Below are positions 415-37,894 of a stretch of DNA of 39,442 bases, piece after piece; positions within the stretch are counted from its first letter, which is position 1; every line of letters begins with the position of its first letter. Below the pieces are notes generated by a model that was not told the DNA's origin, searched no databases, and saw nothing but the letters and a program-made list of their open reading frames with translations. The stretch comes from a virus. The position numbers were made by a program, and so were the translations under genes. The stretch lies in the IMG/VR virus record IMGVR_UViG_3300035698_007737, positions 1 through 39,442 of that record. One strand, 5' to 3'.

Positions 415-1818
415 ATGGGGCAGTTATTTAATTATCAAATTGACGGCGCAGCGTTTCTAAGGGATAGAACCCTAGCCTTAATGGCCGATGAAATGGGTCT
501 AGGTAAAACAATTCAGGCCATCCGTGGCCTAGATAGCGTCCATGCTAAAAAAGTATTAATCATATGTCCAAGTATAGCAAGAATAAATTGGCTACGTGAG
601 TTTGAGTGTTGGTCCCAAATAAAAAGACAATATAAAGTGGCTATGACCCTAAAAGACCTGCCAATTGAAGGGGAGTCATGCATCTGCTCTTATGATTATG
701 TATCGGAAAACAGAGAGTATCTCTTAAGCCAAAAATGGGATGTTATTATAGCCGATGAAGCCCATTTTTTAAAAGAACCTGGTAGCAAGAGAACTAAAGC
801 AGTTGTTGGAAAGCGGGGAGTTATTAGAAATTGTGGACGTTTTTGGATGCTAACAGGAACGCCTGCGCCCAACAACGCTAGTGAATTATGGTTGATGTTA
901 TACACTTTTGGCCAAACAAACATGACAAAAGATGCTTTCACCCAGTATTTTTGCCTGACAAGACAGACATCTTATGGGATAAAGGTACTCGGTTCCAAAA
1001 AAGACCGCGTTCCTGAGCTTCAACAACTTTTGAAAAATGTGATGATTAGAAGACTCAAAAAGGACGTTATGAAGGACTTACCTCCAATAATATACAATCA
1101 TGATCTGGTAGAACCTGGGCCTGTTGACTTAGAAATACTCCCCTCATTTTGCCAGTACTTTCTACCCCATGATCGCAGAGAAGAACTGTTCGCAGAGCTA
1201 GATAAACAGCATAAACTTTTAACAGACGTTTACACCAACACTAAACTTGAAAATGCACAAGCTCTAGCCCTTGCTTCTAGCATATCTGACAGCGTGTCCA
1301 CTCTAAGACGATACGTTGGCTTACAAAAAATACAGGCCACTATTAAGATGGTTCATGACAATTTCAGAAATAAAAGATTTGATAAACTAGTGATTTTTGC
1401 CATACACCAAGACGTAATAGAAACTTTAAGAAGGGAACTTAGACAATATAAACCTGTCACGCTTTATGGCAAAACACCTGCAAGTAAAAGAGACAAACAC
1501 ATTGATAAGTTTCAAAATAATCCAGCATGTAAGATATTTATTGGTAACATTTTGGCTGCAGGAACGGCCATCACATTGACCGCAGCGTGTAATGTCTGGA
1601 TTTTAGAACAAGACTGGGTGCCTGGAAATAACGCACAAGCTATCATGCGAGTTCACAGAATCGGTCAAGAGAAAAAAGTGTACGTTAAGTTTATAGGGTT
1701 GGCTGAGTCTTTAGATTCGAGGATAATGCTGATGGTCAAAGGTAAGACTCGCGACCTCACTCGAATTTTTGATGAAAACTTGTTGCAAGACGTGCAACAA
1801 ACGGATATTTTTTCCTAA
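415..1818 (+). CDS. SNF2-family DEAD/DEAH helicase
   Basis: A 467-residue superfamily 2 helicase of the SNF2 type, expected to use ATP to move on DNA during phage replication. A Q-motif-like NYQIDGAAFL opens the protein, followed by Walker A MGLGKT (about residues 27-32), DEAH at 114-117, motif III LTGTP at 146-150 and motif VI RVHRIGQ at about 412-418, which is the classic SNF2 signature. All core motifs are present, so the short length is normal for phage SNF2 proteins rather than a truncation. It is the first gene of the plus-strand replication operon and begins 19 bp from a divergent gene. No obvious ribosome binding site precedes ATG 415. Confidence 0.93.
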   Translation: MGQLFNYQIDGAAFLRDRTLALMADEMGLGKTIQAIRGLDSVHAKKVLIICPSIARINWLREFECWSQIKRQYKVAMTLKDLPIEGESCICSYDYVSENREYLLSQKWDVIIADEAHFLKEPGSKRTKAVVGKRGVIRNCGRFWMLTGTPAPNNASELWLMLYTFGQTNMTKDAFTQYFCLTRQTSYGIKVLGSKKDRVPELQQLLKNVMIRRLKKDVMKDLPPIIYNHDLVEPGPVDLEILPSFCQYFLPHDRREELFAELDKQHKLLTDVYTNTKLENAQALALASSISDSVSTLRRYVGLQKIQATIKMVHDNFRNKRFDKLVIFAIHQDVIETLRRELRQYKPVTLYGKTPASKRDKHIDKFQNNPACKIFIGNILAAGTAITLTAACNVWILEQDWVPGNNAQAIMRVHRIGQEKKVYVKFIGLAESLDSRIMLMVKGKTRDLTRIFDENLLQDVQQTDIFS

Positions 1819-1850
1819 CAATTTCAAAAACAGCATTAGGGGGGTCCAAC

Positions 1851-2315
1851 GTGATCGAGTTAAAGATTGAAGCAAATAATATTGTTGAACTGAAAATCCA
1901 ACTTACAAATATATTGGGTATGACTGAAGGTCACATACCGAAAATTAGTCAAAACACCATTAAAGCAAAAGAAGAAGTCAGCCTAAAAGTGGGTGACGCT
2001 AATTCATTAAAACCTCAAGAATATAAAGAGCCCGAAGCTCAAACACTTGTCAAAAAGAAGGCTACAAAAAAGGTCGCTAAGAAAAAAGCAGCTGTGAAAG
2101 TTGAAGTTGTCGCCTCCCCACAAGAGCCCGAAACTGAAGACACTGTTACTGAAAAGCACACTTATGAGGCTCTACAAAAAGTGAGCACCATGAAAGGACT
2201 AGCTGAAGCAAGAAACGTTTTGGCCAGTTTCGACTGTGACCGTATTTCATCCCTTCCTAAATCAAAATTTGGGGCTTTCGTCACCGAGTGTGACAACATG
2301 TGTGCAGGCGCTTAA
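1851..2315 (+). CDS. Lysine-rich hypothetical protein of the replication operon
   Basis: A 154-residue protein starting at GTG 1851, with a G-rich ribosome binding site (AGGGGGG) seven bases before it. A short N-terminal beta/alpha segment (IELKIEANNIVELKIQL) is followed by a basic linker with KKKATKKVAKKKAA, an acidic patch, and a C-terminal helical part ending in two cysteines. The basic linker could contact nucleic acid, but I do not recognise the family. It sits between the SNF2 helicase and the DUF2800 gene, whose ATG follows its TAA stop directly, so translation is probably coupled. A replication accessory role is inferred from position only. Confidence 0.8.
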   Translation: MIELKIEANNIVELKIQLTNILGMTEGHIPKISQNTIKAKEEVSLKVGDANSLKPQEYKEPEAQTLVKKKATKKVAKKKAAVKVEVVASPQEPETEDTVTEKHTYEALQKVSTMKGLAEARNVLASFDCDRISSLPKSKFGAFVTECDNMCAGA

Positions 2316-3482
2316 ATGTCTACATCACAACCTGCACACTCCAAAATCGGAGCGTCTTCTTACTACCGTTGGAAGGCGTGCCCTGGAAGCGTTAAACTTT
2401 CTGAAGGCATAACTAGCCCAGAGAGTCCTTATGCTAAACAGGGTACTGTGGCCCATGACATAGCGGCCACAATGTTAGAAGACTATTTTTTTAGAAAAGG
2501 TAAACCAGACATACCTGCTAATTATCCTATTGAGGACTTACAGGCAGTTAAAGTTTATATAGAACAAATTAAAAAAGATGCGTTAACCCTTGGGTGTCTG
2601 GCTTCAGAAGGACACGTACTCATCGAACACCGCTTTGATTTATCAGCAGTACACCCAGGGCTTTTTGGAACTTCAGATGCAACGATGTATTCCCCTAATG
2701 AAAAAAAATTAGCGGTGTATGATTATAAGCATGGCGCAGGTATTCCTGTTGGGGTTTTTAATAACGTACAGCTTCAGTATTACGGGCTTGGTGCTCTGCT
2801 TAGTTCAGGGTTTCCATGCTCTACTGTGGAGCTAGTTATTGTGCAGCCAAGGTGTGACCATCCAGATGGTTTGATTAGACGGTGGCAATTTAAAGCTGTA
2901 GACCTTATAGAGTTTGCAGCCCAATTGGCTGAAGACGCCAAGGCTACAGAACAGCCTAACGCTAAGATTCATCCAGGCGATCATTGCAGGTTCTGTCCTG
3001 CAGCACCCACTAAATGTCCTGCCTTAAGAGACAAAGCAAAATCTTTAGCGAAGCTTGAATTTAGTCCTGTATCAAAACATGAGCCGGACAGATTAGTTGA
3101 AGCGCTGAATTTTTTACCAGCACTAGAGGCTTGGATAAAAACAGTGAGAGAGTTTGCTTATGCTGAAGCTAGCCACGGTCGCACCCCAGAGGGTTTCAAA
3201 TTAGTGGCCAAAAGAGCTATGAGAAAGTGGAGCTTACCAGATACAGAACTGGCTGAGAATTTAGAGTGCATGTTACCTGACCAAAGTTTTTATAAAAAAA
3301 GTATTCTATCACCAACTCAAGTCGAGAAGCTTTTGCCAAAAGAATTGAAGAAAACATTAGAAGGACTTGTGGTTAAAACAAGTTCTGGAAATACATTAGT
3401 TCACAGTACCGATAAACGACCTGCGATAAAGCTTGACGCTTCTGCAGACTTTAAACCCATAGAAGGGGGCCTAAATGGATGA
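2316..3482 (+). CDS. DUF2800 protein, Cas4/RecB-like nuclease
   Basis: A 388-residue protein of the DUF2800 family, related to the PD-(D/E)XK Cas4/RecB nucleases. The N-terminus HSKIGASSYYRWKACPGS carries the first family cysteine. The central part has GTSDATMYSPNEKKLAVYDYKHG, the PD-(D/E)XK core with the acidic pair and the lysine, followed by NVQLQYYGLGAL. A cysteine cluster CRFCPAAPTKCPAL (about residues 227-240) fits an Fe-S cluster site. The family usually stands beside phage SNF2 helicase, DUF2815 and PolA genes, as here, and probably acts as an exonuclease in replication or recombination. The start codon abuts the preceding stop, and the next gene overlaps its end by 8 nt. Confidence 0.9.
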   Translation: MSTSQPAHSKIGASSYYRWKACPGSVKLSEGITSPESPYAKQGTVAHDIAATMLEDYFFRKGKPDIPANYPIEDLQAVKVYIEQIKKDALTLGCLASEGHVLIEHRFDLSAVHPGLFGTSDATMYSPNEKKLAVYDYKHGAGIPVGVFNNVQLQYYGLGALLSSGFPCSTVELVIVQPRCDHPDGLIRRWQFKAVDLIEFAAQLAEDAKATEQPNAKIHPGDHCRFCPAAPTKCPALRDKAKSLAKLEFSPVSKHEPDRLVEALNFLPALEAWIKTVREFAYAEASHGRTPEGFKLVAKRAMRKWSLPDTELAENLECMLPDQSFYKKSILSPTQVEKLLPKELKKTLEGLVVKTSSGNTLVHSTDKRPAIKLDASADFKPIEGGLNG

Positions 3483-3711
3483 CGAAAATAATAACGAATT
3501 GGATCAAGATTTACATGATAAAGCAGAAACTGTCATAGTTGAAGCTAAAGAAGATAAGACAGAAGAAATTTTAGACGCTGCTAGTGAAAACCTAGAAGTG
3601 CCAGATCCAGAACCTTTCCAGCCCCCTGAAGATCAAGAAGAAACTAAAAAACCAGGGCTAAAAGAAACTCCCCGCTTTAATCAAGTGGGAACTAAAAATC
3701 ATAAAAACTAA
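3475..3711 (+). CDS. Small acidic hypothetical protein
   Basis: A 78-residue, strongly acidic protein rich in Asp, Glu, Asn and Pro (for example PDPEPFQPPEDQEE), probably disordered. It overlaps the end of the DUF2800 gene by 8 nt with GGGGG just upstream of ATG 3475, and is followed 26 nt later by the DUF2815 gene. Acidic partners of this kind sometimes assist single-strand DNA-binding proteins, but nothing in the sequence proves that. Family not recognised. Confidence 0.75.
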   Translation: MDDENNNELDQDLHDKAETVIVEAKEDKTEEILDAASENLEVPDPEPFQPPEDQEETKKPGLKETPRFNQVGTKNHKN

Positions 3712-3737
3712 ACAACTAAAAAGGAGAAAAGTAAAAA

Positions 3738-4316
3738 ATGAATACACCAAAATTTAGAGTCTCATTTCCTAACGTTTTTGAGGCCAAGAAAAATGACATG
3801 AATGGCAAGGATGAATTTTCAGTAATGGCTTTGTACCCAAAAGGTGCAGACATGGCGTTGTTGGAAGCTGAAGCCGAGAAAGCAGTCATCGCTAAATGGG
3901 GTGCCGATAAATCCAAGTGGCCCGCAAAACTGCGCTCACCTTTTAGGGATCAAGGAGAGAAGGCAAAAAGAAATAACGATGGTGACATGATTTTACCGCC
4001 TGCACACGAAGAAGGCGCTATCTTTATGAATCTTAAGAGCCAACAGAAACCACATGTTGTTGATAATAGCGTTCAAGACATTATTGATAGATCACAATTT
4101 TACGCTGGCTGTTGGGCTGTAGCTTCAGTGAGCGCGTATGCTTACGATGCTAAAGGAAATTGTGGAGTAGCTTTCGGCCTTGGCAACATACAAAAAGTTG
4201 GTGAAGGCGAGCCATTAGGCGGTCGTACAAGACCTGAAGACGATTTTGCACCTGTAGATATGGGTGGCGAAAAATCAACTGCAGAGACAGGGGCTGCGGG
4301 CAGCATTTTTAATTAA
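3738..4316 (+). CDS. DUF2815 protein, probable ssDNA-binding protein
   Basis: A 192-residue protein of the DUF2815 family, which is thought to be a single-stranded DNA-binding (OB-fold) protein of phages. Family features visible are the start NTPKFRVSFPNVFEAK, the central FRDQGEKA and HVVDN segments, and FYAGCWAVASVSAYAYDAKGNCGVAFGLGNIQKVGEGEPLGGR in separate motifs near residues 116-160. The last 30 residues are acidic and glycine-rich and end in a hydrophobic SIFN, like the partner-recruiting tails of SSB proteins. AAAAAGGAG precedes ATG 3738. It lies between the nuclease and polymerase genes. Confidence 0.9.
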   Translation: MNTPKFRVSFPNVFEAKKNDMNGKDEFSVMALYPKGADMALLEAEAEKAVIAKWGADKSKWPAKLRSPFRDQGEKAKRNNDGDMILPPAHEEGAIFMNLKSQQKPHVVDNSVQDIIDRSQFYAGCWAVASVSAYAYDAKGNCGVAFGLGNIQKVGEGEPLGGRTRPEDDFAPVDMGGEKSTAETGAAGSIFN

Positions 4317-4326
4317 AATTTGAATA

Positions 4327-4409
4327 GACCTACACAAGTTGTTTGTATTCCATGAGGTAAAATCTTATGGACCCTAACCCTAACCCTAATGCTACAACTT
4401 GTGTGGGTC
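4327..4409. repeat. 16-bp inverted repeat enclosing three CCCTAA telomere-like units
   Basis: GACCTACACAAGTTGT at 4327-4342 is complementary to ACAACTTGTGTGGGTC at 4394-4409; the single imperfect position becomes a G-U pair in RNA, giving a continuous 16-bp stem with a 51-nt loop. The loop holds three tandem CCCTAA units (about 4372-4389). It fills the gap between the DUF2815 and polymerase genes. It could be an origin, an RNA element controlling polymerase expression, or a terminator-like structure (no T-tract). Confidence 0.75.
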
Positions 4410-4427
4410 ACCTTTAAGTGGGGGTAC

Positions 4428-6500
4428 ATGGGGCAAACAGTACACATTGATTTTGAGACTAGATCTACCGTCAATCTACTGAAGACCGGCGCAGACGTGT
4501 ACGCTCAAGATCCAACAACTTCAATTTTGTGCCTTTGCTACTCCTTTGATGAAGGACCTATACACACTTTTTTGCCTGACACTGAATATTTTGGCCGAGT
4601 AGATGTTAACCTTTCAAAACTTATGACTTGTGTGTTGAACGGTTGCACAGTTGTTGGCCACAATGTTGGGGCCTTTGAAGTTTTAATTTGGAACTATATC
4701 TGTGTGCCTACTTACGGCTGGCCACCTTTAAATATCGAACAATGCGAAGACACTATGGCTCTTGGATATGCTATGGGATTACCTGGGTCATTGGATGCAG
4801 CCAGCGCAGCTGTTGGACTCCAAGCCAAAAAAGATATGAAGGGCCGACAGGTTATGCTTCAACTTTGTAAACCTAGAAGCATAGAAGATGATGGCACGAT
4901 TGTTTGGTGGACCAAAGAAGATGTGCCAGAAAAATATGAAATTTTATATAAATATTGTGAACAAGACGTAGAGGTAGAGCGCGGGCTTCACCACCGGCTT
5001 ATGAAATTAAGTGAGGATGAAGAAACTCTATGGCACCTCGATTGGACTATAAACCGTAGAGGTGTAAATGTTGATAAAAAATCAATAGAAATCTGTATGC
5101 AAATTGTAGCATCTGAGAAAATACGACTTGATTTAAAGATGCGTGAACACACTTTAGGTGAGGTGTCAACTTGCAATGCTACAGGCCAGTTGACAGATTA
5201 TTTAAGGTGGCGGGGTGTCACCGTTCCCAGTGTTGCCAAGGCTGATGTTTTGGACATGCTTGAAACCGAGTTACCTGACGATTGCAGGCAAGCTCTGCTA
5301 TTAAGACAGGAAGCTGGCAAGACTTCCACGGCCAAACTAAAATCTATGGTTTTGGGGAGTTGTTCAGATGGCAGAATCAAAGGACTATTTCAGTACCACG
5401 GCGCTACCACTGGTAGGTGGGCTGGCAGAAGGGTTCAACTACACAACTTGCCCCGTCCAACTTTAAATCAAGATAGAATCGAAGATGCGTTTGCTATTAT
5501 AAATTCAGGAAAGCCTTTGGCTGAAATTACAGAACTACTAAGCATGTTCTACGGGTCCCCAATGAGTGTGGTTAGTAGCTGTATTAGAGGCTTTTTACAA
5601 GCCAAACCTGACCACGAGTTTATAGGTTGTGATTTCTCAGCTATTGAGGCCAGAGTCCTAGCTTGGTTGGCCGGTCAGGAAGATGTGTTAGAGATTTTTA
5701 GAGGTGATGGCAAAATTTATGAATACCAAGCTGGACGAATATACGGGGTCAGTCCTTCTGAAATAAAAAAAGACGACCCACGCAGACAAATAGGAAAGGT
5801 GGCCATCCTAGCACTTGGATACCAGGGCGGGGTCGGGGCCTTTCAATCAATGGCTAAAAACTATTTTGTCAAAGTACCTGATGACACCGCAGAAGATATT
5901 AAACTGGCTTGGCGGGCCTCAAACTCGGACATAGTAGATTATTGGTATCGACTAGAAGACGCCGCCGTACTAGCTGTGAGGTACCCAGGTGAAGGCTTCG
6001 CTGCAGGGGCTAAAGGTAGAGAAGTTAATTTTAAAAAAAATGGATCTTTTTTGTGGTGCAAACTGCCATCTGGCAGAGTTCTCTGTTACCCGTACCCCAA
6101 ATTAAGGCCTGTTAAACTGATTAAAGACCTTGAGACTAGACGCGTTAGAAGATTTGACCCATTAGTTGATACAGGTCGAGCTGACTATTTTGAAAAAACA
6201 GCGTTAAGATATAAGACTGTTGCTCTGGGCAAGTGGCGCGAAGTGGCTACCTATGGGGGCAAACTCTGTGAAAATATAACTCAAGCTGTGGCCAGATGTG
6301 CTCTGTCTGAATCAATGCCCAGGCTTGAACAAAAAGGGTACCCAATAGTGATGCATGTTCATGATGAATGTGTTGTAGAAATTCCAAAAGGTTTTGGCTC
6401 TGTGGTTGAAGTAGAAAAAATTATGTCTGAGATACCATGTTGGGCTGTTGGGTTGCCTATTGATGCCGAAGGCTGGCATGGGGAACGGTTCAGAAAATGA
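4428..6500 (+). CDS. DNA polymerase I family (PolA-type) with 3'-5' exonuclease
   Basis: A 690-residue family A polymerase that copies the phage genome. An N-terminal DnaQ-like proofreading domain opens with HIDFETRS (catalytic Asp and Glu at about residues 8 and 10). The polymerase part shows GRWAGRRVQLHNLPRP, motif A GCDFSAIEARVLAWLAG, motif B RRQIGKVAILALGYQGG and motif C HVHDE (about 643-647), all with the catalytic acidic residues. An upstream ATG at 4389 is possible, but ATG 4428 directly precedes the exonuclease motif and has AAGTGGGGG before it; the longer form would begin inside the hairpin region. The stop overlaps the next start (ATGA). Confidence 0.95.
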   Translation: MGQTVHIDFETRSTVNLLKTGADVYAQDPTTSILCLCYSFDEGPIHTFLPDTEYFGRVDVNLSKLMTCVLNGCTVVGHNVGAFEVLIWNYICVPTYGWPPLNIEQCEDTMALGYAMGLPGSLDAASAAVGLQAKKDMKGRQVMLQLCKPRSIEDDGTIVWWTKEDVPEKYEILYKYCEQDVEVERGLHHRLMKLSEDEETLWHLDWTINRRGVNVDKKSIEICMQIVASEKIRLDLKMREHTLGEVSTCNATGQLTDYLRWRGVTVPSVAKADVLDMLETELPDDCRQALLLRQEAGKTSTAKLKSMVLGSCSDGRIKGLFQYHGATTGRWAGRRVQLHNLPRPTLNQDRIEDAFAIINSGKPLAEITELLSMFYGSPMSVVSSCIRGFLQAKPDHEFIGCDFSAIEARVLAWLAGQEDVLEIFRGDGKIYEYQAGRIYGVSPSEIKKDDPRRQIGKVAILALGYQGGVGAFQSMAKNYFVKVPDDTAEDIKLAWRASNSDIVDYWYRLEDAAVLAVRYPGEGFAAGAKGREVNFKKNGSFLWCKLPSGRVLCYPYPKLRPVKLIKDLETRRVRRFDPLVDTGRADYFEKTALRYKTVALGKWREVATYGGKLCENITQAVARCALSESMPRLEQKGYPIVMHVHDECVVEIPKGFGSVVEVEKIMSEIPCWAVGLPIDAEGWHGERFRK

Positions 6501-8695
6501 GTTTTTTAGATTCAGCAATAAAATTAGCAGACATGGGGTTTCATGTATTTCCATTACAGGTTAACAGTAAACTTCCAGTGATAAAAGACTATCCGAATCT
6601 CGCCACTAAAGATCATAAACAGATTAAGAAGTGGTGGACTGATCCAGTTATGGGCATTGAAAAGCCTTACAACATCGGCATATCAACGTCACAGTATAAC
6701 TGCAATCAATCTCTAGTGGTTGTGGACGTTGACAATAAGGGTGAAAAAAAAGGAAGTGAAGAAGTTTTAAAACTAGAACTTGAAGGTTTTGAGTTTCCTA
6801 ACACCTTTTCTCAAAGCACACCTACAGGTGGCAGCCACTACATTTATAAAGCCCCAGAGGCAGTAAAGCAGGGCGTGTCAGTTCTAGGTAAAGGTTTAGA
6901 TATTCGGTCCCGTGGCGGTTACGTTGTTGGGTGGGGTTCAGAGATTGATGGTAAACCTTATAAGGCGTTTCAAGGGTGTTTTGATATAAGTGACTGCCCC
7001 CCTTGGATTGTAAACGCCTGCAATGTTGTCAGACACAAAGACGCGATTGAAGTAGACGTATCAACTATAGATAAAGAGCGTGCAGTTATGCGTGCAGGCC
7101 ACTACCTAGAGAAAGAAGCACCACTTGCTTTAGAGGGTGATGGTGGGGACAGCACCACCTTTAAAGTGGCCACAAAGTTAAAAGATTTCGGCGTTGATAA
7201 TAGAACTGCTGTAGAACTTATGGCCGACCTTTGGAATGATAGGTGTCAACCCCCCTGGGACCATGACGAATTATGCACAAAAGTTGATAATGCGTTTAAG
7301 TATGGGACTCTGACAGTTGGACATGGTGCCCCTGAATCACAGTTTGAAGTTGTACCTCAAACAGGTGATGAAGAAGACAGTTTTTTAGAAAAAATAAATA
7401 AAGAGTTTGCTATCATATTTGGCGATAACCAACACTCCATACTTCAAGAAACTGTAGATGAAAAGGGTAGACCCCGCAGAGTATTTATGAGTGAGACTGC
7501 TTTTAAAAGATTAATGTCACCTAATTTAATTCAACAGGGTAAGGGACGCGCTAAAACTTTTGCCGAAGTCTGGCTAGACTGGGAAGGTAGACGAACTTTT
7601 CAAGGGCTTTGTTTTAGACCTGAATGTGAACCTAGAAACAATTATTATAATCTGTGGCGCGGGTTTATTTGTAAGCCAAAAGCGTACAACAAAGCCACCG
7701 CGCAGGCCAAACTTGGATTTGATTTGTTTAAAGAGCACGCACTTAAAAATGTGTGTGATAACGACAAAGAATTATTTAACTGGCTTATGGGGTACTTTGC
7801 CCACATGATGCAGAAACCTTTTGAAAGGCCCCTGACAACACTAGTGTTTAGAGGGGCTAAGGGAGTAGGTAAAAATGCACTCATTGACAGAATTGGTAAT
7901 CTGCTTGGTAGCGGTCACTATCTTGTGGCCCACGATGGTAGGTATCTCACTAGTAATTTTAACGGTCATCTGGATTCAGCAATATGTCTTGTTCTAGATG
8001 AAGCTTTTTGGAGTGGCGACAAATCCGCAGAAGGTAAATTAAAAGGACTGACCACCGCGCCTGAAATCCTTATAGAAAGAAAAGGTAAAGAGCCTTACTT
8101 GGTCGATAACCTTGTGCGACTTGTAGTTGTTGGTAACGAAGATTGGTTAGTGCCAGCCAGTAGCGATGAACGCCGGTATGCAGTGCTAGATGTGGGTGAT
8201 GGTAGAAAACAAGACGGGGCTTTCTTTGAGAAAATGAGAGTCCTTATTGACAGTAACGGTGGTAACGAAGTTCTCCTAGATTATTTTCAAAAATTTGATT
8301 TAAAGACTGTTGATGTGAACAAAGCCCCCCAAACTAAGGGACTTTTAGAGCAGAAGATATCTTCTCTTGATATGGTTGAAGAGTTTTGGCTTCAATGTTT
8401 AACAGACGGTCAACTAGTTGGCTGTGAATTTAATGAAGATTGGCCCGAAGCTGTCAGCAGAAAACGTTTTAGAGATTTGTATGTGGCCTTCACTAAGCAC
8501 AAAAATTCAAGGTCTAGAGTTATGGACGCTAGAAGTTTTGGACGCAAACTAACTCAGATGTGTCCACTCCTTAAAAAAGAAGTGCGTTTGAAAACTAAAG
8601 ACAGTATAAATGCTAGAGCTTATGGTTTTCCAGAACTGAAACGCTGCAGGCTTTATATGTCAAACTATCTTGGCCAACCTATTGAATGGGAATGA
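6497..8695 (+). CDS. Bifunctional prim-pol primase and SF3-type (VirE/DUF5906-like) helicase
   Basis: A 732-residue replication protein. The N-terminal 170 residues are a primase-polymerase domain: GFHVFPLQVNSKLPVIK, then NIGIST, the catalytic VVVDVDNKG, and a GGSHYIYKAP histidine motif. A PriCT-like helical domain follows (about 195-275, CQPPWDHDELCTKVDNAF). The C-terminal helicase has Walker A FRGAKGVGKNAL (about 448-460), Walker B ICLVLDEAFW and the sensor VVVGNEDWLVPASSDERR. It likely primes and unwinds DNA for the adjacent PolA. It overlaps the polymerase gene by 4 nt and is the last gene of the plus-strand replication operon. Confidence 0.93.
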   Translation: MSFLDSAIKLADMGFHVFPLQVNSKLPVIKDYPNLATKDHKQIKKWWTDPVMGIEKPYNIGISTSQYNCNQSLVVVDVDNKGEKKGSEEVLKLELEGFEFPNTFSQSTPTGGSHYIYKAPEAVKQGVSVLGKGLDIRSRGGYVVGWGSEIDGKPYKAFQGCFDISDCPPWIVNACNVVRHKDAIEVDVSTIDKERAVMRAGHYLEKEAPLALEGDGGDSTTFKVATKLKDFGVDNRTAVELMADLWNDRCQPPWDHDELCTKVDNAFKYGTLTVGHGAPESQFEVVPQTGDEEDSFLEKINKEFAIIFGDNQHSILQETVDEKGRPRRVFMSETAFKRLMSPNLIQQGKGRAKTFAEVWLDWEGRRTFQGLCFRPECEPRNNYYNLWRGFICKPKAYNKATAQAKLGFDLFKEHALKNVCDNDKELFNWLMGYFAHMMQKPFERPLTTLVFRGAKGVGKNALIDRIGNLLGSGHYLVAHDGRYLTSNFNGHLDSAICLVLDEAFWSGDKSAEGKLKGLTTAPEILIERKGKEPYLVDNLVRLVVVGNEDWLVPASSDERRYAVLDVGDGRKQDGAFFEKMRVLIDSNGGNEVLLDYFQKFDLKTVDVNKAPQTKGLLEQKISSLDMVEEFWLQCLTDGQLVGCEFNEDWPEAVSRKRFRDLYVAFTKHKNSRSRVMDARSFGRKLTQMCPLLKKEVRLKTKDSINARAYGFPELKRCRLYMSNYLGQPIEWE

Positions 8696-33766: not shown

Positions 33767-34297
33767 TCATGAAAATAATACTCTGCGTAACTCCTCTGTA
33801 TTGTAACGAAAGTCAGCGTAAATCATTGTATTCATTAGACTCCTGTGCCCCAAAGCCATCTGCAGGACTTTGATATCTTTACACTTATCATATAGATTGA
33901 GCGCGAAGGTGTGTCTGAGTGAATGAAATTTTTTCTTAACAGGCTTGTAATGTGTCCATATCTGATTAAGCCGCGGGTAACTTATTGGGAAAATATGGCC
34001 ATCCTTATGAGTTTTAAGAGACAGGACAATTTTGAATAACCATTCAGGTATTGGAATCTCTCGGTCCTTAGAGTTCTTAATCCCACACACATAAACACTC
34101 TGCTTGTCAACATCAAAGTCTGTGATTTTTAGGTTCAGAAGCTCTGTGGCTCTTGCGCCTGTGTGCAGGGCAAGCCAGATAATGGCCACATTCCTGGGCT
34201 CTTTATCTTTATGACGATTAAGAATCTTGACCAATTGGCCTTGTTCGTCTTCGCTTAGATACTTCTCTCTTGTTATTTCATACTTAGATTGTTTCAT
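33767..34297 (-). CDS. int: Tyrosine recombinase, catalytic domain only (mini-integrase)
   Basis: A 176-residue tyrosine recombinase/integrase. All active-site residues are visible: Arg 49 (TGARATELL), the beta-hairpin Lys (GIKNSKDREIP, 74 or 77), His 125 and Arg 128 (HSLRHT), His 151 (LGHRS) and nucleophile Tyr 160 (NTMIYADF). Phage integrases are usually 300-400 residues; here the arm-binding and SAM-like core-binding domains are missing, and no upstream frame supplies them. It may integrate the phage, resolve genome dimers, or invert DNA. No Shine-Dalgarno site precedes ATG 34297. Two 15-bp repeats lie 16-55 nt upstream. Confidence 0.92.
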   Translation of the reverse strand: MKQSKYEITREKYLSEDEQGQLVKILNRHKDKEPRNVAIIWLALHTGARATELLNLKITDFDVDKQSVYVCGIKNSKDREIPIPEWLFKIVLSLKTHKDGHIFPISYPRLNQIWTHYKPVKKKFHSLRHTFALNLYDKCKDIKVLQMALGHRSLMNTMIYADFRYNTEELRRVLFS

Positions 34298-37114: not shown

Positions 37115-37290
37115 CCGTAGAAATCAAGATCAAAAGCGTATATGGACGTGAGCTGATATACCCAATTAATGATACAGCCAAGATCTTTGCGGAACTCATG
37201 GACCGCAAAACCTTTACCAAGTCCCAACTATTGATAATCAAAAAGCTAGGGGCTGAAATCAAAGTATCTGAGCCCGACCCCTTTAGTTAA
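37111..37290 (+). CDS. Small conserved-type phage protein (59 residues)
   Basis: A 59-residue protein (MTVEIKIKSVYGRELIYPIN..., ending EPDPFS). GGAGG precedes ATG 37111, which overlaps the preceding stop (ATGA). The pattern I-K-x-V-Y-G-x-x-x-I-Y-P ... A-x-x-F-A ... L-x-x-I-K-x-L-G occurs in small phage and bacterial proteins I have seen as conserved hypotheticals. It is the last gene of the small plus-strand operon. Confidence 0.78.
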   Translation: MTVEIKIKSVYGRELIYPINDTAKIFAELMDRKTFTKSQLLIIKKLGAEIKVSEPDPFS

Positions 37291-37335
37291 CCAGAAACAT
37301 TGACCTTTTTGGCCAACCCCACACCCATTTCAAGG

Positions 37336-37365
37336 CTTTCACTTACATTACTTTCACTTATATTA
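37336..37365 (+). repeat. Two tandem 15-bp repeats (CTTTCACTTAYATTA)
   Basis: CTTTCACTTACATTA at 37336-37350 is followed without a gap by CTTTCACTTATATTA at 37351-37365. Other members of this family lie at 34338-34352 (minus), 34606-34620 and, less perfectly, 34313-34327 and 35503-35517, all in non-coding DNA. Confidence 0.75.
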
Positions 37366-37369
37366 ACCA

Positions 37370-37391
37370 ATACCAGTTAGCTAACTGGTAT
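37370..37391. promoter_or_regulatory. Perfect 22-bp palindrome (operator-like) with two ACCAGTTA half sites
   Basis: ATACCAGTTAG (37370-37380) is followed directly by its reverse complement CTAACTGGTAT (37381-37391). It contains one ACCAGTTA and one TAACTGGT, whose starts are 10 bp apart. A dimeric helix-turn-helix protein is the natural reader; the Cro-like protein encoded at 37895 is the nearest candidate. Confidence 0.75.
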
Positions 37392-37400
37392 GTTGCGTTT
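37391..37400 (+). repeat. TGTTGCGTTT 10-mer, copy C
   Basis: The third exact copy, directly attached to the 22-bp palindrome. In copy B as here, a CTTTCACTTATATTA 15-mer lies upstream in the same direction, with 3 nt between in copy B and 25 nt (including the palindrome) in copy C. Confidence 0.6.
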
Positions 37401-37406
37401 AAGTGG

Positions 37407-37435
37407 TTGCGCTAAGTGTCTAATTTTTCTACTAT
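37407..37435 (+). promoter_or_regulatory. Possible sigma70 promoter
   Basis: TTGCGC (37407-37412), then 17 bp, then TACTAT (37430-37435) with TATAAA overlapping downstream. It starts 15 bp after the palindrome, so a protein bound there could control it. It would drive the regulator/resolvase operon with a long leader. The match is moderate. Confidence 0.4.
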
Positions 37436-37557
37436 AAACCACTATACCACTCTTACCTATTAATAATAATAATAGTATATAGAAATATATGGGTAAGTAG
37501 TCTGGCACATACATGCTCCATATATTTTTATATGGCTGAACATTAAAAAACACTGGT

Positions 37558-37631
37558 TAACTGGTAGTAACTGGTATCCTTAGGGATTACGGGCACTTAG
37601 GCCAACCAGTTACCACCAGTTCTACCAGTTA
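37558..37631. promoter_or_regulatory. Phased operator or iteron cluster (ACCAGTTA / TAACTGGT)
   Basis: TAACTGGT occurs at 37558-37565 and 37568-37575 (10 bp apart), and ACCAGTTA at 37605-37612, ACCAGTT at 37615-37621 and ACCAGTTA at 37624-37631 (10 and 9 bp apart). The two groups face each other across 29 bp. The roughly one-turn spacing means that all copies in a group lie on one face of the helix, as in repressor arrays or replication iterons. Confidence 0.7.
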
Positions 37632-37894
37632 CTAAGTGGTTTCCTCAAATTGCCAAGTCATATTAGTATCTTAGCAAACAGCCCTACTGGTACCCGCCCT
37701 CTATATAGGCGCACAGGCTTTGGAGTCCATATAGTTCGCGGTGTCCCCATGTCAGCGGTGACTTTAATAGCCCGCCACATCGTTTTTAAGCTTGATCGGT
37801 AATAGCTGTGGCCTTAGGGTGTCAATATCTTATCCAACTGACTCTCCAAATAGAATCCGCGCAATTACTGTGCCTCTAGGAGTTGGCTAATATT

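Follow-up and report, generated by a model that had tools for sequence, protein, structure and literature searches.

A well-supported mRNA hairpin between the ssDNA-binding protein and DNA polymerase genes of a viral replication operon, and its counterparts in related loci

Why does a viral replication operon carry a long hairpin, with three CCCTAA units in its interior, between the genes for its ssDNA-binding protein (SSB) and its DNA polymerase, and to which of the two genes does it belong? The hairpin lies at positions 4327–4409 of a virus record of 39,442 bases, which was analyzed at its full length and is called the window here. An earlier note on this DNA had placed it in the only sizeable gap of the operon, between these two genes; profile matches agree with that assignment (PF10991 and phrog_112; PF00476 and phrog_17), and the other gaps between operon ORFs, from 415 to 8695, measure 32 nt or less. 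The gene order is DUF2800 exonuclease, SSB (PF10991, Enc34_ssDNA-bd), family A polymerase and Prim-Pol/DUF5906 protein. The outer stem, P1, begins 10 nt past the SSB stop codon and ends 18 nt ahead of the inferred polymerase ATG at 4428, which we chose over the start of the longest ORF (4389, inside the hairpin) on the grounds of a ribosome site, GGGGG, and of where homology sets in. A DNA search of 3700–6600 against a phage collection returned a single match, of 113 nt. Elsewhere in the window, a short integrase ORF (33767–34297, 176 aa) gives partial profile matches (261–441 of 611, 51–229 of 301) and is perhaps truncated or split. The features of the locus are as follows.

3738–4316, plus strand: gene for a Gp2.5/Enc34-like ssDNA-binding protein (PF10991, E = 2.4e-40; phrog_112, E = 1.9e-43)
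4327–4342, plus strand: 5′ arm of P1, 16 bp (scans, fold, pair probabilities and eight compensatory pairs relative to the related locus L001)
4345–4348, plus strand: 5′ side of a short helix, P2, with GTAT paired to ATGC at 4389–4392 (MFE structure)
4349–4371, plus strand: inner hairpin P3, 10 bp, TCCATGAGGT/ATCTTATGGA, 3-nt loop (MFE and centroid structures; similarly placed inner hairpin in L001)
4372–4389, plus strand: (CCCTAA)3, the mostly unpaired 3′ side of the loop, its terminal CCTAATGC common to L001
4394–4409, plus strand: 3′ arm of P1, followed by ACCTTTAAG with no U-tract (absent from the terminator scan list)
4410–4425, plus strand: small local pairing of ACCTTT with GGGGGT over the polymerase ribosome-binding site, with or without the big hairpin (fold)
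4428–6500, plus strand: family A DNA polymerase gene, start codon inferred (PF00476, phrog_17)

The 16-bp stem described in the earlier note, continuous with G-U pairing and enclosing 51 nt with three CCCTAA units, was recovered both by our scans and by folding of the plus strand. The arms of P1, GACCTACACAAGTTGT and ACAACTTGTGTGGGTC, form 15 Watson-Crick pairs and one G-U pair, and all 16 have predicted pair probabilities of 0.97–1.00 in plus-strand RNA. The plus strand from 4300 to 4430 folds with a minimum free energy (MFE) of −41.8 kcal/mol (z = −4.14), a value that none of 200 shuffles equalled; for the minus strand of the same stretch z was −0.31, with 63 of 200 shuffles equally good. 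P3, which the earlier note had not reported, lies inside P1, and the CCCTAA units make up most of an unpaired 3′ bulge in the MFE structure.

In a simple-score scan with loops of up to 100 nt, P1 was the top stem of the window with a score of 37.5, against 31.5–37.0 for the top stems of six whole-window shuffles; genome-wide, the stem alone is thus barely beyond chance and is no proof by itself. The weight of the case is carried by the position, the fold and the relatives of the hairpin, and not by the stem score alone. At the gathering score, no Rfam family matched in the window or in the related loci L001, L009 and L011, and two microRNA-family matches at the hairpin under a relaxed threshold fell far below the cut-off and are attributable to chance. 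A promoter scan found 19 sites against 18.8 expected. We consider an RNA element well supported here, the hairpin being real and best read as a folded part of the mRNA.

L001, the closest relative found (polymerase 58% identical), also has a stem in this gap, with similar nesting and a largely different sequence. Stem covariation had been proposed as a check, and the comparison spoke for the stem: of the 16 pairs of P1, four are unchanged in L001, three differ on one side, eight differ on both sides and still pair, and one is broken, a count biased towards the stem in that the pairs were registered from the outer pair. The fold of L001 by itself, which is independent of this register, has z = −3.22 and is better than all 200 shuffles. 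Both loops contain CCTAATGC as well as the fragments AGGT.AA and TATGG; their alignment score was matched by 1 of 5000 shuffles when global and by 93 of 5000 when local.

Loci for a wider survey came from six protein scans, five against IMG/VR and one against genome contigs, and SSB and polymerase genes were paired with HMMs that we derived from the window together with four relatives (278 sources, L001–L277 and the window, with 280 polymerase and 241 SSB ORF hits). We excluded polymerase hits in which the first 40 model positions were missing, gene pairs on opposite strands or spaced outside −100 to 2500 nt, all but the first of exact duplicates, stretches that contained N or ran past the end of the locus, and polymerase frames interrupted by a stop. 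With a stem score of 8 or more within 120 nt as threshold, a strong stem follows the SSB stop codon in 117 of 187 unique stretches (near-identical loci retained), against 11–24% of control stretches, which are mostly coding DNA where the test stretch is often intergenic. The controls bore stems in 28/181 cases after the polymerase stop, 42/187 and 43/188 inside the polymerase gene, 21/189 inside the SSB gene and 43/189 near the SSB start, and another control run inside or near genes gave 46/189. Cluster tests on 177 loci, which account for kinship, gave a mean stem fraction of 0.70 after SSB versus 0.28, 0.22 and 0.17 over 49 clusters at 50% identity; at 35% identity just six clusters are left, and the polymerase-internal comparison has p = 0.06.

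Stems after the SSB stop were found in 41 of 61 loci with an SSB–polymerase gap below 25 nt, in 40 of 65 with 25–249 nt and in 36 of 61 with at least 250 nt. In L009, the nearest named relative, the genes overlap, no listed stem exceeds the threshold and the folding signal within the gene is modest. The gap of L163 holds a tRNA-Ile gene (3712–3784, anticodon aat), so that the space between SSB and polymerase can house other RNAs too. In L018, a 36-bp unit is repeated 4.2 times without mismatch directly before the polymerase (3827–3979), with a small inverted repeat (TCTTGAGTAAATCAAGA) within it. In one phylum, PF10991 occurs in 8 of 398 genomes.

The folding-energy z after SSB was −3.28, −1.81 and −1.43 for the short, middle and far gap classes, and −0.32, −1.73 and −1.00 before the polymerase; the controls gave −0.20, −0.15 and −0.35 after the polymerase stop and −0.76, −0.79 and −0.61 near the SSB start. 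Within the far class, z was below −2 after SSB in 19 of 60 loci and before the polymerase in 14 of 60, in 13 only after SSB, in eight only before the polymerase (including L092, L021 and L239) and in six at both places. Comparison with random windows of the same locus gave a weak signal (p ≤ 0.05 in 10/48 near stretches, 9/61 far stretches after SSB and 7/61 far stretches before the polymerase). Taken together, the element is associated more closely with SSB than with the polymerase, a difference that is clear by stems, modest by energy and only moderately clear overall.

Where SSB and polymerase genes abut, the structure sits in the first polymerase codons. With a gap below 25 nt, polymerase nucleotides 16–105 had a mean z of −3.08 relative to synonymous randomization, with 75% of loci below −2 (n = 57), and the other two gap classes gave −0.63 (n = 64) and −0.50 (n = 56). 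Shifting the stretch to nucleotides 1–90 and 31–120 gave −2.85 and −2.92 for the short gaps (n = 58), and −0.09 and −0.63 (n = 67) and 0.03 and −0.63 (n = 56) for the longer ones. Three other places in the polymerase gene had means of −0.39, −0.32 and 0.05, and the antisense strand of nucleotides 16–105 in the abutting class had −1.97 versus −3.08 for the sense strand. Abutting loci are often related, with 43 of them in one cluster; by clusters at 50% identity, 8 of 11 abutting ones lie below −2 versus 2 of 19 and 4 of 28. RNAalifold on 22 Firmicutes polymerase starts returned eight pairs, four of them with double changes, and Enterococcus phage phiFL4A offers a named case with a 13-pair stem. 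Hairpins within the first ~120 nt of the polymerase gene were also seen in L150, L153, L169, L203, L206, L211 and other loci with abutting genes.

Stems resembling that of the window in loop size (score of at least 10, loop of 35–55 nt) follow SSB in 15 of the 187 stretches, against 14 among 1312 control stretches (p = 2.6e-7); two of the 15 are near-duplicates (L066 and L113 share one stem), and the stem of the window scores highest. In Bordetella phage BPP-1, at a distance of 27 nt from the SSB stop, 16 perfect pairs enclose a loop of 40 nt (L370:2052–2123); in the Steinhofvirus phages of Achromobacter the stem reaches up to 20 pairs, and its 43-nt loop has a conserved core. The latter element, for which we list the following three copies, has local DNA matches in 21 Achromobacter phage records.

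L366:2139–2221, L376:151–232 and L377:148–230: Steinhofvirus element between SSB and tRNA-Pro, with a covarying stem and a conserved structured loop

Between phages JWX and 83-24, 16 pairs of the Steinhofvirus stem are the same, three have changed on both sides and one, the outermost, is broken; between JWX and hasilly_LB3, 12 are the same, two have single and four double changes, and two, again outermost, are broken. Like the window hairpin, the BPP-1 and Steinhofvirus elements follow closely on an SSB gene of this family, with stems of 16–20 bp and loops of 40–43 nt; unlike it, they precede something other than polymerase, a small gene in BPP-1 and a tRNA gene in JWX, and no clear sequence similarity to the window hairpin was seen. 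Rfam searches of the Achromobacter loci and BPP-1 gave tRNA only, with no match for the Steinhofvirus element itself. The BPP-1 element adjoins a second GC-rich hairpin, and its loop contains GCACGCACC, a 9-mer that, as noticed by eye, the JWX loop carries in reverse complement as GGTGCGTGC.

Replication in 16 named phages, which we picked from 60 of 527 matching records, was mixed, negative by stems and positive by energy. Seven of the 16 reached the stem threshold, as did 24 of 80 control stretches (p = 0.38, not significant), several of these phages bearing shorter GC-rich hairpins, and the folding-energy z fell below −2 in 10 of 16 (mean z −1.88 vs −0.55, p = 0.0034). JWX scored just −0.92 because the 110-nt stretch cuts its hairpin. 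Four of five further named phages have a stem score of at least 8, the one without being Paenibacillus phage Bob.

The reading that we favor, and to which we give about an even chance of being right, is that the hairpin belongs to the 3′ side of SSB in the mRNA of the replication operon, where a folded 3′ boundary raises SSB over polymerase. SSB is needed stoichiometrically and polymerase catalytically. The folded boundary would halt 3′-to-5′ decay of the SSB message, and in some relatives the hairpin probably also ends part of the transcription; the SSB mRNA would then outlast or outnumber the polymerase part of the transcript, with much SSB and little polymerase as the outcome. The structure itself, its mRNA-strand nature, the keeping of form rather than sequence and the enrichment behind the SSB stop are supported in silico; 3′-end protection or attenuation, and the purpose of SSB over polymerase, we infer by analogy with known systems.

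We favor 3′-end protection, with partial termination in some relatives, because the anatomy matches that of the protective structures by which mRNA levels are made unequal within E. coli operons. According to PMC5927463, 26 of 34 E. coli operons with a stabilized first gene have a 3′ end just behind a stable hairpin without a U-tract, and 17 of those 26 fall, at 107 ± 56 nt, inside the coding sequence of the next gene. The window hairpin likewise stands behind the upstream gene, is stable and lacks a U-tract, and relatives retain the structure, also where it falls within the coding sequence downstream, with exceptions such as L009, L092 and L021 and the mixed outcome in the 16 named phages. 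It differs from the E. coli structures in its setting, behind an Enc34/Gp2.5-type SSB gene in the replication operon of a phage, in its 51-nt nested loop with a repeat, and in being predicted here from sequence. The same paper states that Firmicutes use 5′-to-3′ decay as well; many of the abutting cases are Firmicutes, so that protection there may work otherwise.

Could the hairpin instead be a translational operator, bound by the polymerase (or by SSB) to repress polymerase translation? This is the manner of T4 gp43, which binds a hairpin ~40 nt upstream of its own start (PMC3014915), and the window hairpin resembles that operator in lying shortly upstream of the start of a phage DNA polymerase gene, 18 nt from the inferred ATG. 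The Steinhofvirus element shows conservation of its stem and loop core such as a binding site would have, and the far-class loci folded strongly before the polymerase (14 of 60, eight of them only there) point the same way. Unlike the T4 case, the polymerase here is of family A and the hairpin is larger, and the predicted accessibility of the polymerase ribosome-binding site is equal with and without it (0.12 and 0.11). Loop sequences differ between genera, and where other genes intervene stems stand in 36 of 61 loci after SSB versus 16 of 60 before the distant polymerase. An operator seems rather unlikely to us, and the RNA switch for polymerase synthesis suggested in the earlier note was right about RNA and half right about the polymerase, stems being commoner after SSB and energy less clear.

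An intrinsic terminator or attenuator between SSB and polymerase is a doubtful account of the window copy, slightly more so than the operator, with better grounds in some relatives. At least five T in the next eight bases follow 30 of the 117 stems after SSB and 4 of 16 stems before a distant polymerase, versus 5 of 177 stems from five control sets. A terminator is annotated after SSB in the PaMx28 record, and the JWX and 83-24 records label the Steinhofvirus element a putative terminator; among T4-like phages, 5 of 6 genomes have a predicted terminator behind gene 32 (PMC1524935). The window hairpin shares with these its position directly behind SSB, and departs from them in its large loop of 51 nt and its lack of a U-tract: the ACCTTTAA behind P1 has three T, whereas an intrinsic terminator was taken to have a short loop and at least five T in eight, and the terminator scan omits the stem. 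The T-tract is also found at just 7 of 41 stems of the abutting class.

A variant that joins several of these elements is more tentative still. It holds that the hairpins of the window, L001, L014, L025, L262, BPP-1 and the Steinhofvirus phages belong to a widespread class of phage RNA elements, with a 12–20 bp stem and a structured loop of ~40–50 nt behind Enc34-type SSB genes, that would be bound by the phage's own SSB or polymerase. Free replication protein would feed back on the SSB/polymerase ratio, and where the genes abut a hairpin in the polymerase codons would have the same role. Such feedback through SSB or polymerase binding may operate as it does for T4 gp32 and gp43 (PMC3014915).

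The remaining options concern DNA. The earlier note had offered, beside an RNA element, a replication origin and a protein-primed or ssDNA-binding site; the RNA option stands, and a DNA hairpin or cruciform with either of the other functions is very improbable, for all its location in a replication operon. The minus-strand fold is ordinary, as described above. In 65 gaps of 25–260 nt, 31 stems with scores of at least 8.5 contain 34 G-U and 5 A-C cells (p = 2.4e-6), in a search that penalized both mismatches equally, and this preference for G-U in imperfect pairs implies that selection acts on the mRNA strand. The G-U:A-C counts are 50:11, 36:4 and 21:11 after SSB in the short, middle and far gap classes, the excess being smallest in the last, 16:4 before the distant polymerase, and 15:20, 21:25, 13:21, 6:10 and 36:32 in controls. 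Compared with random windows of the same loci, whole gaps reached p ≤ 0.05 in 25 of 64 cases on the sense and 22 of 64 on the antisense strand, with the sense fold lower in 45 of 64, so that by this measure the two strands are nearly alike.

A cumulative GC-skew signal near 4.3 kb, proposed as another check, did not appear: the skew climbs through this region, with its extremes near 8–9 kb and 37–38 kb, where they coincide with changes of gene direction. No iteron-like repeats were found around the hairpin, and its CCCTAA repeat is not conserved. The intergenic stretch 37285–37640, near the cumulative GC-skew minimum, contains repeat copies of ACCAGTTA/TAACTGGT in either orientation as well as two long hairpins (37476–37534 and 37559–37621); it is a candidate operator or origin, and the repeat-rich 37.3–37.6 kb is a better candidate for an origin than the hairpin.

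The run at 4372–4389 is the sole (CCCTAA)3 in the window. A search of IMG/VR for the pattern AGGTNAA..TATGG..CCTAATGC gave 64 matches in 61 stretches, with a comparable stem solely in L281, which is the L001 contig (stem score 16; the next best, 12, lies in a coding-like repeat). The threefold CCCTAA is a local expansion, since the repeat is absent from L001 save for its last unit and the pattern search gave a comparable stem in the L001 contig only. A telomere-like or G-quadruplex element is the least credible reading of all: the three units are perfect and near-matches of the repeat 12-mer number two in the window against 0.18 expected (3 of 100 shuffles had as many), but the complementary strand has just three GGG runs, as the earlier note had read, L001 shares nothing of the repeat beyond CCTAATGC, and the one other IMG/VR contig with the (CCCTAA)3-ATG pattern, a 20-mer, L344, has by eye no such hairpin.

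We return to the reading of the hairpin as a folded 3′ boundary of the SSB message. Our literature search, over titles and abstracts, found no description of a hairpin rule behind phage SSB genes. The present data suggest such a rule for a common phage replication module, in which an mRNA hairpin stands behind SSB, conserved by form and not by sequence, and is overwritten onto the polymerase codons where there is no spacer. It would offer a simple explanation, open to test, of how a phage could obtain abundant SSB and little polymerase from a single operon, and it implies that synonymous positions at the 5′ end of the polymerase gene can be under constraint at the RNA level.
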